NCBI RefSeq assembly: GCF_004295665.1
Contig: NZ_CP034759.1
Location: 4,030,001-4,094,000 of the forward strand
DNA length: 64,000 nucleotides
DNA from: Litorilituus sediminis
GTDB taxonomy: Bacteria; Pseudomonadota; Gammaproteobacteria; Enterobacterales; Alteromonadaceae
Direction of reading: 5' to 3'
In this document: positions 9,516 through 25,435 of the stretch, piece by piece
Layout: every line of letters starts with the position of its first letter
How positions within the stretch are numbered: the first letter of the stretch is position 1
Made by a program: the position numbers and the translations under genes
Notes under the pieces: model-generated
What the model saw: only the letters and a program-made list of their open reading frames with translations
What the model was told of the DNA's origin: nothing
Databases searched by the model: none

Positions 9516-9605
9516 TGGCAAAAACCTAATAGAAAAAAGTGCTTGGCTAAAAATCAAATACACGACACAATTAGTGTCATGAAATATCATTCACTTGACA
9601 TAACT

Positions 9606-11042
9606 ATGCATAACCCGCTCAGCACCTTACAGGAAAATAGCTTGAGCAAAACTTTGCGTTTATTCTTTTTTATTCTTGTTCTTATTAGTTTATTTTCATG
9701 TGGGCAAAAAGATGAGCCGGCAAGTTTATCTCGTGTATTAGAAAGAGGTGTGATTCATGTTGGCACCTTATATGGTCCCACTAATTACTATGTAAAAGCT
9801 GATGGTTATGCCGGTTTTGAATATGAATTGGCAAAAAAATATGCTGATTCCATCAATGTGGAGTTACGTATTGTGCCAAGTTATAGCTTGGATGAGTTAT
9901 TTGTGAAGTTAAACCGAGGTGAAGTCGATGTGCTTGCCGCTGGTTTATCGGTTACCGATAAGCGATTAAAACGATTTCGCTTTGCGCCAAGTTATGAAAC
10001 GGTGAGTCAAAAGCTGGTTTATAAGCAAGGTAAAAAGCGGCCAAGAAAAGTAGCTGATTTAACCGGGAGTTTATTGGTGACTGCGGGTTCAAGTTATGTG
10101 GAAAATCTTGAAGAATTAAAACTGAGAAACCAGCATTTAACTTGGCAAGAAACCGCTGATTTTGATAATGAAGAACTGCTTGGCAAGGTATTGAGTGAAG
10201 AGATTGATTACACCATTATTGATAGCAACAGCTTGGCAGTTAATCGTCGTTATTTTCCTGAAATTAGCATAGGTTTTACCATAAAAAAACCTGAGCAGTT
10301 AGCTTGGGTGGTGAGTAAAAATGCTAAAGATGATATTTTAGCTAGCCTAGTTGAGTTTTTTGGTCAGGTGCATCACGACGGAACCTTGCTGGCGTTAGAT
10401 GAAAAGTATTATGGTCATATTGAAAGTTTTGATTATGTTGATACCAGAACTTTTATTAAAGCCGTAGAAAAAAAACTCCCCAAATACCAGCACCTCTTTG
10501 AGAAATACGCCCAAGATATTGATTGGCGCTTGCTTGCAGCGATAAGTTACCAAGAATCTCACTGGCGACCTCATGCTCGCTCACATACCGGTGTCAGAGG
10601 TATGATGATGTTAACTTTGGCAACCGCAAAACAAATGGGTATAAAAAGCCGATTAGATACTGAAGAAAGTATTCGCGGTGGTGCAAAGTACTTTAAACGT
10701 ATGATAGATAAGATCCCTGATCGTATTCCAAGACCGGATAGAATCTGGTTTGCCTTAGCCTCATATAATGTTGGTTTTGGTCATTTAAATGATGCCAGAA
10801 TTATTACCCAGCGCCAAGGTGGTGATCCTGATCGTTGGGTGGAAGTAAAATCGCGATTACCGTTATTACAACAAAAGAAATATTACAAGAATACTAAGTA
10901 CGGCTATGCTCGTGGAGAAGAGCCAGTTCGTTATGTAGAGAATATTCGACGTTACTATGATACCTTGACTTGGCTTGATAATAAGGCCAAAGAGCTTGAG
11001 ATACCAGAGCAGGTGATTGTACCTGAGCAAATCAGTGAATAG
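9606..11042 (+). CDS. mltF: Membrane-bound lytic murein transglycosylase F
   Basis: About 478 aa from the ATG at 9606; the frame is open further upstream from a TTG at 9543, but that would add an unlikely leader. Hydrophobic N-terminus with a lipobox-like LFSC (about residues 29-32), then an SBP_bac_3-like substrate-binding module ([19 protein letters not shown] ... [12 protein letters not shown]), then an SLT lytic transglycosylase domain with the catalytic Glu in [16 protein letters not shown] and [10 protein letters not shown]. It cleaves peptidoglycan at the inner face of the outer membrane. The purL-mltF-(tadA) neighbourhood matches E. coli. Confidence 0.93.
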
Positions 11043-11074: not shown

Positions 11075-11108
11075 TTGTCATTAAACTGTCATGAAAGTTT
11101 TCAATAAT
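11075..11108 (+). promoter_or_regulatory. Predicted PhoB box and -10 upstream of the 48-codon ORF
   Basis: Two 11-bp direct units, TTGTCATTAAA (11075-11085) and CTGTCATGAAA (11086-11096), form an 18-bp Pho box (11075-11092) close to the CTGTCATAWAWCTGTCAY consensus. Exactly 10 bp later is AATAAT (11103-11108), a -10 hexamer with one mismatch. The same box-to-10 spacing occurs at the pstC promoter in this window and at E. coli phoA. Confidence 0.7.
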
Positions 11109-11162
11109 ACTGATGAACTTGCTACTTAATTAAGCAATTAACACATTATTTGAGAAGGTATT

Positions 11163-11309
11163 ATGAAACTAAAAAGACAATTACAAACAAGTCAGCGCAG
11201 AAAGCAACTTATCCGCCAACAACAAAAAATGATTAACAGAAGACAGTTTTATTTTAACCAAACTTTATCAGTTGTTGCTCGTCAAGTTGATGGTGCGGCG
11301 GTTAACTAG
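11163..11309 (+). CDS. Small basic protein, 48 aa, predicted PhoB-controlled
   Basis: ATG to TAG gives 48 residues: MKLKRQLQTSQRRKQLIRQQ, then QKMINRRQFYFNQTL and [13 protein letters not shown]. It has about eleven Lys/Arg and ten Gln, mostly in the first 28 residues, which look like an amphipathic basic helix; there is no signal peptide or membrane segment. A Shine-Dalgarno GAGAAGG (11152-11158) precedes the ATG. A Pho box with -10 lies about 55-90 bp upstream, so phosphate-starvation induction is inferred. The 3' end overlaps the convergent histidine kinase gene by 4 bp. I do not recognise the family; the basic composition suggests RNA, DNA or ribosome binding, which is speculative. Confidence 0.6.
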   Translation: MKLKRQLQTSQRRKQLIRQQQKMINRRQFYFNQTLSVVARQVDGAAVN

Positions 11310-14300
11310 TCATCAACTACCACGGCATTATTTTGCGTTAATTCTTTGCTAATTAAACAAGTTAGCGAACTAGAGCTAGCGTTTATTTGAATTAATAAAG
11401 GCGTTAGGGCTTGAAGATTATTCGCTTTTACTTGCTGCTCAAATGTTTTACTTAAATTGTGTAATTCAATCGCACTGATATTTGCTGCCATACCTTGAAT
11501 TTTATGACTTGCTTGCAGTAGTTGTTCTAAATTGCTCTGCTCAAGATTGTTCTGCTTAAGCGCATTATTCAGTACGCTTAACTGACTAGGTAATTCATCA
11601 ATAAATAATTTGAGTAATTGTTCAAGAATCACTTTATTATTGTTTAAGCGCTTAAGTAACGCTTCTTTTTTCCACACGCTTAATTTTTCTTCTTTTTCCC
11701 CTTTCTTCTCTTTGGCTGTTTTTGCTAACACTGTTGGCGTTTGCGTTTCTGGCATAGTTTCAGTTGCTTTGTTGTTTACCATTTCGCTTACTGAGGTTTT
11801 TTCATTATGCACTAGGTAATGAAGAAGCTTTTCTTTTAACTGTTCGGGCTCAATCGGCTTGGTCAAATAGTCTGTCATGCCGGCGTTGAGACATTTTTGT
11901 TTATCTCCCTTCATGGCATTTGCCGTCATAGCGATAATAATAATATCTTGATTCGCCTTTCCTGCATCGCCTTGCCTAATTGCTTTAGTTGTTTGGTAGC
12001 CATCCATATGCGGCATTTGGCAATCCATTAAAATAAGGTCATAAGGGGTATCAGCACAGGAAAGTTTTAGTGATTCAATCGCCTCGACACCATCGGCTGC
12101 GACATCAGGGGTTATGCCAAATTCAGCGAGTACATGTCGCGCTACCTCTTGATTGATACGATTATCTTCCACTAATAATAACCGACAGGACGCTAATTCT
12201 TTGGCATTGCTTGGTGTTGAATCAAAACCTTGCTCTATTGTGTTTTCTTGTTCGAGTTCTCTTAACAAGTGTTGTGTGATAATAGGTACAGCTTGAGTCT
12301 GATTCTTTTCTGCCAGTGTCAAAGCGATTGCTTTAAATATATCTTCGGTGGTTGTTGGTTTTGGAAAATAGGCACTAAAACCAAGGCTGGAAAAATAACT
12401 GGCATCGCCTCGAGATGCCATAGAGGTCATCATCACCAGTTTTAATTCTGCTAATTCAGGTTCTGCTTTAATACGTTTGGCCAGCTCAGCACCATCCATA
12501 CCAGGCATATTCATATCTAAAAAAGCGACTTTAAATGGTTGAGCATTTTGATTGTTTGCTGAGGCTGAATGTTTAAGTATATTTAACGCGGTAACGCCAC
12601 TGTCTGCTTCCGTTACGCTCGCACCCCAATGCTCTAACTGTTGCTTTAATACCAGGCGGTTGGTGGCATTGTCGTCAACAACTAACATGGCGATATTTTC
12701 AATATTTATATTAGGGATAACTTTTTTCGCCTGTTCACTGGTTTGTAATGCGATTGTAAAAGAAAAAGTAGAGCCTTGATTTAAGACACTAGTTACCTGA
12801 ATATCACCATGCATAAGCTGACATAATTGCTTTGATATGGCTAAGCCCAGGCCTGTGCCACCGTATTTGCGTGTGGTAGAAGCATCAACTTGGGTAAAGG
12901 AATCAAACAAGGTTGCTATTTTATCTTCAGGAATACCTATGCCAGTATCGCTAATAGCACAATGAAACGCTAAGTTACCCTTTGCGCCATAACCTTGTTT
13001 TTCTATTAGCTTGGCAGTAATGACTATTTCACCACGTTCGGTAAATTTAATCGCGTTACCTGTTAGGTTGGTTAATATTTGCCTTATGCGACCAGGATCG
13101 CCTTTAACATGGCTGTGTTTGATTTGGCTATTGTCTAAGATGATCTCAATGTTTTTTTCTTGGCTTTTTAGCGCCATTGATTCGGCAAAGTCACCAAGTA
13201 GCTTTCTTAAGTCAAAGTCGATAAATTCTAGCTCTAGTTTACCGGCCTCAACCTTAGAAAAGTCTAAGATATCGTTAACTAAATTAAGTAGCGCTTGAGC
13301 GCTGGAATTTGCAAGTTTCACTCTATGCATTTGTTCGTCACTTAGCTCATTACGCATAAGTAAACCTAGCATGCCAAGCACGCCATTCATTGGCGTGCGT
13401 ATTTCGTGACTCATACTCGCTAAAAATTCAGCTTTTACCCGAGCCGTTTCTTCTGCTAATTCTTTAGCGGCGATATGTTTTTGCTCAACTTCTTTTAGTT
13501 TTGTGATATTAAAATTGACGCCAATTACTTGTACTACATGACCTTGGCTATTAAGTTTGACTCTGGCATTGGCTTTAATAAACTTAGTTTGACCACTTGG
13601 GGTTACAATGCGAAATTCATGGTTGAAAAAGCCTTTTTCTTGAATAGCTTGCTCTATGGCTTGTGTCGCTGTGGCTAAATCGTCTGGATGTACAGCATTT
13701 TGCCAATCAGTAATGTTACCGGCAAAACTTTGTTTATTTGCTTCATAAATCTTGAACATCCATTTATCCCAAGTGAGCTTATCTTGTTTTAAGTCATACT
13801 GCCAAATACCTATATTTGCGGCATCGGTTGCTAGGCTGATCCGCTCATTGACTTCTAATAATGCCTTTTGGTTTTGTTCTTGCGCTATTTCTAGTTGAAT
13901 TTCTTTTGAAATGTCGCGAATAATCCCTGTGAAGATATAACCTTGATCGGTTTGCACTTTTGATACCGCTAAATGAATAGGGAACTCTTCACCTGATTTT
14001 TTAACCGCTGTGAGCTTTTGCCCTGTACCTATAATGTCAGTAAGGCCTGTTATGATAGCTTCTTTAATCGCGTTATCGTAGGTTGTCGCGTGTATTTTAG
14101 GTATTAATAAGGTGATGTTTTTCTCTAGGATTTCTTTTTCTTGATAACCGAAGATAGATTGCGCTGCTCGGTTGAACGACATTATTTTGCCTTGTTCATC
14201 AATAGTAATAAAGCCTTGTGCTGCATTATCAAAGATGGCTGTAATCTTATTTGCTGCTTCTTCAGCGAGTAGCGCAGAGTGTTCTTGTTCATGCAAAGCC

Positions 14301-15735: not shown

Positions 15736-16275
15736 TTAACTAGTTGAGTTATCTTTAGCTTGCTTTTTCAACGCTTTTTTCTCTTCACGTCTACGCTTGA
15801 AAAACGCTGATAGCATATGGCTGCATTCATCTGCTAATACGCCGCTAGTCACATCTATTTGATGATTAAGCTGTGAGTTAGCTACTAAATTAAAGCTGCT
15901 GCCGGCAGCACCTGTTTTAAAATCAGCGCTGGCGTAAACCAAACGTTTTATTCTGCTGTGTACCAGTAAGCCTGCACACATAGGGCAGGGCTCTAGCGTG
16001 ACATATAATGTGCAATCAAGCAGGCGGTAATTGTTAAGCTGTTTACCTGCCTCTCTTATGGCAATCATTTCAGCATGAGCAGATGGATCATTTAAGGTGA
16101 TGGATTGGTTATAGCCTTCAGCGATAATGTTATTGTTATAAACCACTACAGCGCCAACCGGGATTTCACCATAGCTTTCAGCTACCTGAGCTAACTCAAA
16201 GGCGCGCTGCATAAAGGCTTTATCTGCTGATAATTGACATTGCTTGTGGATATCTTGCTGCTTTAGTTCACTCAT
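15736..16275 (-). CDS. tadA: tRNA-specific adenosine deaminase
   Basis: 179 aa from the ATG at 16273-16275, which overlaps the hemW stop as ATGA (translational coupling). The open frame runs further up to 16332, but that would bury the start in hemW. Zinc-site motifs: His67-Ala-Glu69 in SAHAEM and PCPMC (Cys97, Cys100). It converts the wobble adenosine 34 of tRNA-Arg(ACG) to inosine. The basic C-terminal tail (FKRRREEKKALKKQAK) is typical. Last gene of the minus-strand yggS-to-tadA run. Confidence 0.93.
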   Translation of the reverse strand: MSELKQQDIHKQCQLSADKAFMQRAFELAQVAESYGEIPVGAVVVYNNNIIAEGYNQSITLNDPSAHAEMIAIREAGKQLNNYRLLDCTLYVTLEPCPMCAGLLVHSRIKRLVYASADFKTGAAGSSFNLVANSQLNHQIDVTSGVLADECSHMLSAFFKRRREEKKALKKQAKDNSTS

Positions 16276-17420
16276 AAAAATAACTCGAGTAAGTCGTTTA
16301 GATACCTGTGACCTAGGGTGGTAATTTGCCACTGTTGATTACTGTTTGTGATGAGCTTTTTATCTTGTGCTTGCTTAAGTTGGCTTAAAACCGTTTTACT
16401 TGCTAAGCCTGTTCTTTGTTCAAAATCATCGAGCGTAAACGGTGAAAACAATCGCAAGCGGTTCATCATATATTCAAACGGTAATTCATCAGCTGTTACT
16501 GTGGTTAAATGATCTAAATGAGGGCGACTGGTGTCAAGGTAGCCCTTGGGATGTTTAACTTTTACAGTGCGATAAATTTCCTTGCTTAGTGTATCGGTAA
16601 TTTTACCATGGGCACCACAACCTATGCCTAAGTAGTCGCCAAATTGCCAATAGTTTAAGTTATGTTGGCATTGTTTATCTGCTTTGCTAAAGGCTGAAAT
16701 CTCGTATTGTTTATAGCCCGCGTCACTGAGAAGCTGAAAACCTTTATCTTGAATGTCCCATAATACTTCATCCTGTGGCAGCTTTGGTGGCTTGGAGTGA
16801 AATGCAGTATTAGGTTCAATGGTTAATTGATACCAAGAGAGGTGATCGGGCGCTAAGCGAATCGCTGTTTTTAAATCATCTAGGGCATTGTCTAATGATT
16901 GATTTGGCAGGCCATGCATTAAATCAAGGTTGAAGCTCTTTATACCTGCTGTTTTAGCAAGTTGTGCGGCTTTAATGGCTTGTTGGCTGTCATGAATTCG
17001 GCCAAGTTTGATGAGCTTGTCTGATTCAAATGATTGCACGCCAATAGATAAACGTGAAATCCCTGCTTGGGCAAAACCTGTAAACTTATCACTTTCTACC
17101 GTGCCAGGGTTTGCTTCTAAGGTAATTTCAATATCACTATGATGTTCAAATCGCTGTAGAACTTGGCTGAGTAATTTCTCAATTGCTTGAGGAGAAAATA
17201 AGCTCGGAGTACCGCCGCCAATAAAAATTGAATGCAGATGACGGTTATTTAATTGAAAACGTTCAATATCACTATCGAGATCTTTAATTAATTCATTAAC
17301 ATAATTAACTTCATCCATAGTGTTTTTGATGGCATGTGAATTAAAGTCACAATAGGGACATTTTTGTACACACCAAGGAATATGGATGTAAAGAGAAAGG
17401 GGGGGATTAATTAATTGCAT
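16272..17420 (-). CDS. hemW: HemW, radical SAM heme chaperone
   Basis: 382 aa. The radical-SAM cluster is Cys17-x3-Cys21-x2-Cys24 in WCVQKCPYCDF, followed by FIGGGTPSLF, the ANPGTVE block and GVQSF. Having CxxxCxxCxF with a short N-terminus before it marks HemW (YggW) rather than true coproporphyrinogen III oxidase HemN. It donates heme to respiratory enzymes in E. coli and Lactococcus studies. The gene starts 14 bp after rdgB and overlaps tadA by 4 bp. Confidence 0.92.
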   Translation of the reverse strand: MQLINPPLSLYIHIPWCVQKCPYCDFNSHAIKNTMDEVNYVNELIKDLDSDIERFQLNNRHLHSIFIGGGTPSLFSPQAIEKLLSQVLQRFEHHSDIEITLEANPGTVESDKFTGFAQAGISRLSIGVQSFESDKLIKLGRIHDSQQAIKAAQLAKTAGIKSFNLDLMHGLPNQSLDNALDDLKTAIRLAPDHLSWYQLTIEPNTAFHSKPPKLPQDEVLWDIQDKGFQLLSDAGYKQYEISAFSKADKQCQHNLNYWQFGDYLGIGCGAHGKITDTLSKEIYRTVKVKHPKGYLDTSRPHLDHLTTVTADELPFEYMMNRLRLFSPFTLDDFEQRTGLASKTVLSQLKQAQDKKLITNSNQQWQITTLGHRYLNDLLELFL

Positions 17421-25401: not shown

Positions 25402-25435
25402 TTGTCACAAAAGTGTCATATAACTGTCTTATAAT
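25402..25435 (+). promoter_or_regulatory. Predicted PhoB-activated promoter of the pst operon
   Basis: Three consecutive 11-bp units: TTGTCACAAAA (25402-25412), GTGTCATATAA (25413-25423), CTGTCTTATAA (25424-25434). The first 18 bp form a Pho box; exactly 10 bp later is a perfect -10 TATAAT (25430-25435). There is no separate -35, as expected for PhoB-activated promoters. Confidence 0.85.

Follow-up and report, generated by a model that had tools for sequence, protein, structure and literature searches.

Introduction

The Pho box is made up of tandem TGTCAT-type units with a period of 11 bp. Small proteins of the Pho regulon are already known, since YtfK, a Pho-regulon protein of 8 kDa, promotes the SpoT-dependent accumulation of (p)ppGpp according to the accessible part of the corresponding report (PMC6917717). 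A second system of interest comes from Vibrio cholerae, in which the mltF gene carries the tag VC_0866 (PMC8820737, available in part). For VC0865, the accessible portion of another report (PMC6451090) describes a conserved hypothetical protein, the mRNA of which was reduced 3.4-fold when VqmR was expressed. When the VC0865 5′UTR together with the first 20 codons was fused to GFP, the fusion was repressed by VqmR; it was not repressed in the absence of hfq, and the repression was impaired when the domain R2 was missing (PMC6451090). Here, we describe a gene encoding a small basic protein in a 64-kb window, which is the whole stretch of DNA analysed (64,000 nucleotides of Litorilituus sediminis, contig NZ_CP034759.1, positions 4,030,001 to 4,094,000). 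The protein family to which this gene belongs appears to be new in the libraries searched. In the literature covered, which was accessible in part, the family is not described except for VC0865 as a hypothetical protein.

Results

The small gene and its promoter

A first-pass annotation of the window had described a 48-residue basic protein encoded behind a Pho box, and we found the box, the −10 element, the Shine–Dalgarno sequence and the open reading frame where it had placed them (Table 1). No other site in the 64-kb window matches TGTCAT-N5-TGTCAT without mismatch. The same promoter geometry had been claimed for pstC and was recovered there: an 11/12 Pho box (25403-25419) is followed at the same 10-bp distance by TATAAT (25430-25435), and the reading frame behind these elements scored above the PstC cut-off (TIGR02138, 202.6 bits), which backs the identity of pstC. 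At this promoter (25403-25435), three tandem TGTCAT-type units precede the TATAAT −10 element. The amino acid composition of the small protein, given before as about eleven Lys/Arg and ten Gln, was counted as 7 Arg, 4 Lys and 10 Gln, and the net charge is +10 over 48 residues. The small reading frame and the convergent kinase gene share 4 bp where their ends meet. Our search for terminator-like hairpins yielded a single weak candidate (one found, 0.5 expected by shuffling).

Table 1. Features of the small-gene locus (positions in the window)
Feature	Position	Strand	Remarks
mltF reading frame	9543-11042	+	NF008112, 650.8 bits; upstream neighbour
Pho box TGTCATTAAACTGTCAT, TGTCAT-N5-TGTCAT	11076-11092 (18-bp box 11075-11092)	+	12/12 letters, 11-bp period
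−10 element AATAAT	11103-11108	+	starts exactly 10 bp past the Pho box
Shine–Dalgarno AGAAGG	11153-11158	+	direct sequence reading
Small reading frame, 48 aa, basic	11163-11309	+	ATG 11163, stop 11307-11309
Hybrid histidine kinase gene, 1429 aa	11306-15595	-	convergent with the small reading frame
Weak terminator-like hairpin	11361-11380	+	within the 3′-terminal part of the kinase gene
tadA	15736-16332	-	NF008113, 235.1 bits; convergent; kinase gene between tadA and the small reading frame

Homologues and selection

A single-sequence search detected homologues in 35 of 61 genomes, comprising 35 of the 37 genomes of the genus (L. sediminis included) and none of the 24 others. Among the genus genomes without a match, one (G023) gave partial weak matches and one (G031, 76% complete) gave none. 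A collection of named genomes contributed 23 loci from records of Colwellia and Litorilituus. The 35 genus rows have a core in common that is close to RRKQLxRQHHKMxxRRQxxFNQ. When we compared the coding sequences within the genus (595 pairs), 0.66 of the synonymous but only 0.31 of the nonsynonymous sites differed, and for the pair formed by the window gene and its relative L003 a dS of 1.84 and a dN of 0.16 were obtained. More distant groups behaved similarly, with values of 0.19 versus 0.037 in genus g9 of family f9 (21 pairs) and of 0.66 versus 0.16 in family f21 (45 pairs). Judged by these substitution patterns, the reading frame is under purifying selection at the protein level, and together with its retention in the relatives this strongly supports that 11163-11309 is a real gene.

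Within the GTDB family, diversified profiles detected relatives in 162 of 246 genomes, which represent 41 of 52 genera (E ≤ 0.05; about 12 expected by chance), and at the level of the order in 74 of 394 genomes (E ≤ 0.02; about 8 by chance). For the class outside the order, seven of 274 sampled genomes gave weak matches (E 0.006-0.019), where chance gives about five, and collections of phages, plasmids and viral contigs contained no relatives at the limits used. Thus, by sequence comparison, the small protein is not peculiar to L. sediminis, and the family reaches Shewanella-like (f9) and Vibrio-like (f21) genomes, both names being inferred. These tiny, basic and predicted helical proteins form a widespread, unnamed family in marine bacteria.

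Gene neighbourhood

Neighbourhood played no part in the choice of the loci, which was guided by score and genus; the fetched flank was as a rule about 1.5 kb long. Using MltF and TadA of the window as tblastn queries (E ≤ 1e-5), we found mltF upstream on the same strand at 124 of 133 fetched loci and a convergent tadA downstream, within about 1.5 kb, at 95. At least one of the two was present at 131 loci; the other two loci had short upstream flanks. Counting with looser sequence motifs gave 120 (mltF) and 95 (tadA) of 133; stricter motifs missed mltF at many loci, including all those of f9, and the tblastn count was used. One locus (L156, family f18) was a chance match inside another gene and was excluded from the box and neighbour counts and, its score being too low, from the −10 count. 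L137 was left out of the looser-motif and tblastn neighbour counts and of one alignment (A6), from which L192 was also omitted. The gene downstream of the small gene varies among the genus loci, because a relative of the window kinase was present at 2/35 and tadA lay within the flank at 12/35. E. coli K-12 has no room for the small gene between mltF and tadA, as these two genes share 4 bp.

Conservation of the promoter

For each locus, we scored the best match to TGTCAT-N5-TGTCAT in the 200 bp upstream and used 200 dinucleotide shuffles as null model. Conservation of the box in relatives was evident: at least 10 of the 12 letters were matched at all 35 genus loci (0.34 expected), at 39 of 70 other loci of the family (0.7 expected) and at 12 of 12 loci of f9 (0.09 expected). 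At least 11 letters were matched at 34 genus, 23 other family and 9 f9 loci. The putative Pho box at the small-gene loci is therefore not a matter of chance. Counted by genus, a match of 11/12 or better was reached by one or more loci in 16 of the 34 family genera and by no locus in the other 18. At the 66 loci with 11 or 12 matching letters, window included, a −10 element stood in fixed register, with A in second position at 66/66 and T in last position at 64/66; these loci share kinship and are hence not 66 independent events. In some of the 32 box loci outside the genus, the box and the start codon are 130-184 bp apart; such distant boxes may be due to chance or may serve something else.

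The regulation by PhoB that the first-pass annotation had proposed was thus backed by a box and a fixed −10 element kept across genera, and this conservation strongly supports a putative PhoB control of the small gene. A box of at least 10/12 letters was found at none of the 10 loci of f21 and none of the 7 loci of f6, nor at 31 of the 70 other family loci. Since the box is absent from the f21 and f6 loci examined, the predicted Pho control does not extend to all members of the protein family. For the same reason, and because of the 31 family loci lacking a box, the core role of the protein cannot be limited to phosphate.

Pho boxes elsewhere in the genome

The 4.28-Mb genome of L. sediminis contains three perfect TGTCAT-N5-TGTCAT sites, one of which is the small-gene box. 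Another lies 108 bp ahead of phoB (TIGR02154, 362.6 bits, cut-off 296.2). The third site is located at genome position 4207382-4207398 (locus L221); no reading frame of at least 80 aa was found on the box strand in the 1.5 kb fetched, and a small RNA or a small reading frame may be located downstream. When one mismatch was allowed, 37 sites were obtained versus 15 for a reversed control, and for this reason one-mismatch sites alone are weak evidence. One such site (984103-984119, locus L226) is located about 100 bp before a reading frame of 125 or 133 aa, which consists mostly of tandem short repeats of the VGHGRGTRRLNDTGL type.

Protein properties

In the alignment of 132 rows, the proteins are 38-60 residues long and carry a net charge of +7 to +17. 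R12 and R26 occur in every row, and K22 is conserved in at least 90% of them. Between residues 10 and 33, conservation follows the period of a helix and peaks at 100 degrees (P = 0.0004 by permutation); hydrophobicity alone was not phase-locked to the helix (P = 0.27). Most of the conservation falls on one face, formed by R12, L16, H/Q20, K22, V/M/I23, R26, R27 and F/Y30. With two different alignments, AlphaFold predicted one helix spanning residues 2-47 (mean pLDDT 85.4 and 87.9; pTM 0.50 and 0.56), but such a lone predicted helix is weak structural evidence even at a pTM of 0.56. Residues 9-10, which are mostly N, S or T, look like a helix N-cap, but in the AlphaFold model the helix already begins at residue 2, where the prediction is less confident.

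Searches for known families

The protein had been said to match no known family, and our scans agreed with this: for the window protein and its relatives (132 rows) we saw no Pfam or NCBIfam match above a curated cut-off where one was given, and profile searches of the PDB gave no sequence match at E ≤ 10. Foldseek also found nothing in the PDB, which is uninformative for a single helix. RMF and HPF/YfiA were not among the Pfam and NCBIfam matches of the family rows. The nearest miss was the iron hydrogenase small subunit domain (Fe_hyd_SSU, PF02256). Five of 132 rows matched it at E ≤ 0.1; the best of them, from one relative, reached 23.0 bits (E 8.2e-5) and thus stayed below the cut-off of 24. 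Four of these rows, viewed singly, were genus loci (14.4-23.0 bits), and the window protein itself gave nothing against this family at E ≤ 1. The GS inactivating factor IF7A (NF052599) was weakly matched by two of 132 rows (best E 9.5e-4), and ten rows tried singly gave no match. This identity was rejected: none of 147 genomes had an IF7A match above the cut-off, and in the three of six weakly matching genomes for which the place of the small gene was known, the match lay elsewhere. Further weak matches at E ≤ 0.1 were to OrfB_IS605 (5/132 rows, lowest E 0.02), MPN555 (3/132 rows, lowest E 0.01), TraI (3/132 rows, lowest E 0.011), archaeal uL6 (2/132 rows, E 0.027) and TnpB (1/132 rows, E 0.042). 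Like the Fe_hyd_SSU match, they stayed below the cut-off wherever one was given and were read as effects of composition. uL6 and TnpB act on RNA, and their weak matches in two and one rows are no proof of an RNA role. Taken together, hhalign, PDB, Foldseek, Pfam and NCBIfam did not credibly link the protein to any known family that binds RNA or ribosomes.

Discussion

The comparison of relatives supports the gene, its putative promoter and the conserved face of the protein. From the promoter we infer that the gene would be induced when phosphate is lacking, and the reading that we tentatively favour, which falls a little short of being probable, is that a basic helix produced under PhoB control attaches to a structured RNA during phosphate starvation, the ribosome being the probable target. 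In detail, phosphorylated PhoB would bind the tandem box at 11076-11092 and, replacing a −35 element, would recruit RNA polymerase to the −10 element at 11103. The resulting short mRNA, starting near 11115, would encode the 48-residue basic protein, which would fold mostly into one long helix with the conserved face as working surface. This protein would dock on structured RNA, probably that of the ribosome, and would adjust or protect the machinery of translation, in which much phosphorus is stored, when phosphate is scarce. Ribosomes hold much of the cell's phosphorus, and it is this share, together with the size, the charge and the helical form of the protein, that suggests RNA or ribosome binding.

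The main rival to an RNA or ribosome target is a protein partner: the small protein could be a Pho-induced regulator, comparable to YtfK acting on SpoT, whose conserved face binds an enzyme or a sensor and alters its activity when phosphate runs short. We regard this as quite possible, though less than likely, since L16, V/M/I23 and F/Y30 sit beside the basic residues and a face mixing Arg with Leu, Val and Phe also suits a protein partner, and since there is the precedent of YtfK, which works via SpoT as far as described in the accessible part of the report (PMC6917717). However, the core of the protein is very basic, and no co-transcribed neighbour hints at a partner, the gene having its own promoter and a convergent gene downstream. 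The net charge of +10 in 48 residues would also be in line with binding of other polyanions, either in compaction of the nucleoid or in neutralising the charge of polyphosphate or nucleic acid, but a phase-locked conserved face exceeds what bulk charge needs and makes this improbable.

We consider it highly improbable that the transcript matters as RNA, be it as a dual-function RNA or as antisense to the 3′ end of the convergent gene, with the reading frame being secondary. The overlap of 4 bp with the convergent kinase gene and the position of the weak terminator candidate in the antisense region would fit such a role, but the protein appears to be under purifying selection, Rfam gave no match between 9500 and 16400 and the downstream gene differs among relatives. 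It is hardly tenable that the protein belongs, as a diverged relative, to one of the known small ribosome-linked families. Sra (bS22, PF08136) and bS21 (PF01165) resembled the short protein by eye, with short basic motifs that look alike, but hhalign probabilities were 3% and 0.2% for Sra and 0.2% for bS21. The L. sediminis genome had no Sra match at E ≤ 10, and PF08136 was matched in 9 of 295 genomes of the order, eight of them above the cut-off, all eight in f18 and none in the family of the window. A true bS21 is encoded separately in 26 of 26 genomes, that of L. sediminis included.

With one of the three perfect Pho boxes of the genome in front of it, and kept together with its promoter over many genera, the small gene makes a strong candidate for tying phosphate status directly to translation or to some other core process.

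Comparison with known systems

Sra/RpsV shares with the window protein the length of about 45 residues and the basic character, but differs in sequence (hhalign 3%), in its occurrence above the cut-off (f18 genomes only) and in its location, as the E. coli gene adjoins maeA and bdm whereas the window family adjoins mltF. YtfK of E. coli resembles the window protein, by description, as a small protein under PhoB control, a control that for the window protein would follow from comparison of genomes; it differs in its mass of 8 kDa and its known effect on SpoT, as given in the accessible part of the report (PMC6917717). As to VC0865, its tag adjoins that of mltF (VC_0866), the position at which the Vibrio-like f21 loci carry the small gene. 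From this tag order and the f21 loci, VC0865 is probably a relative, a comparison of position and not of sequence. In contrast to the window gene, its control as reported in the accessible text is by a small RNA of quorum sensing and not by Pho (PMC6451090). It is conceivable, if somewhat doubtful, that the mltF-adjacent family, widespread in marine Gammaproteobacteria, is a conserved ribosome- or RNA-binding factor, of which one branch has been wired to PhoB for managing the ribosomal phosphorus store under starvation and the Vibrio branch has come under a quorum-sensing small RNA. If VC0865 belongs to this family, a hypothetical protein that is a reported small RNA target gains a family identity.
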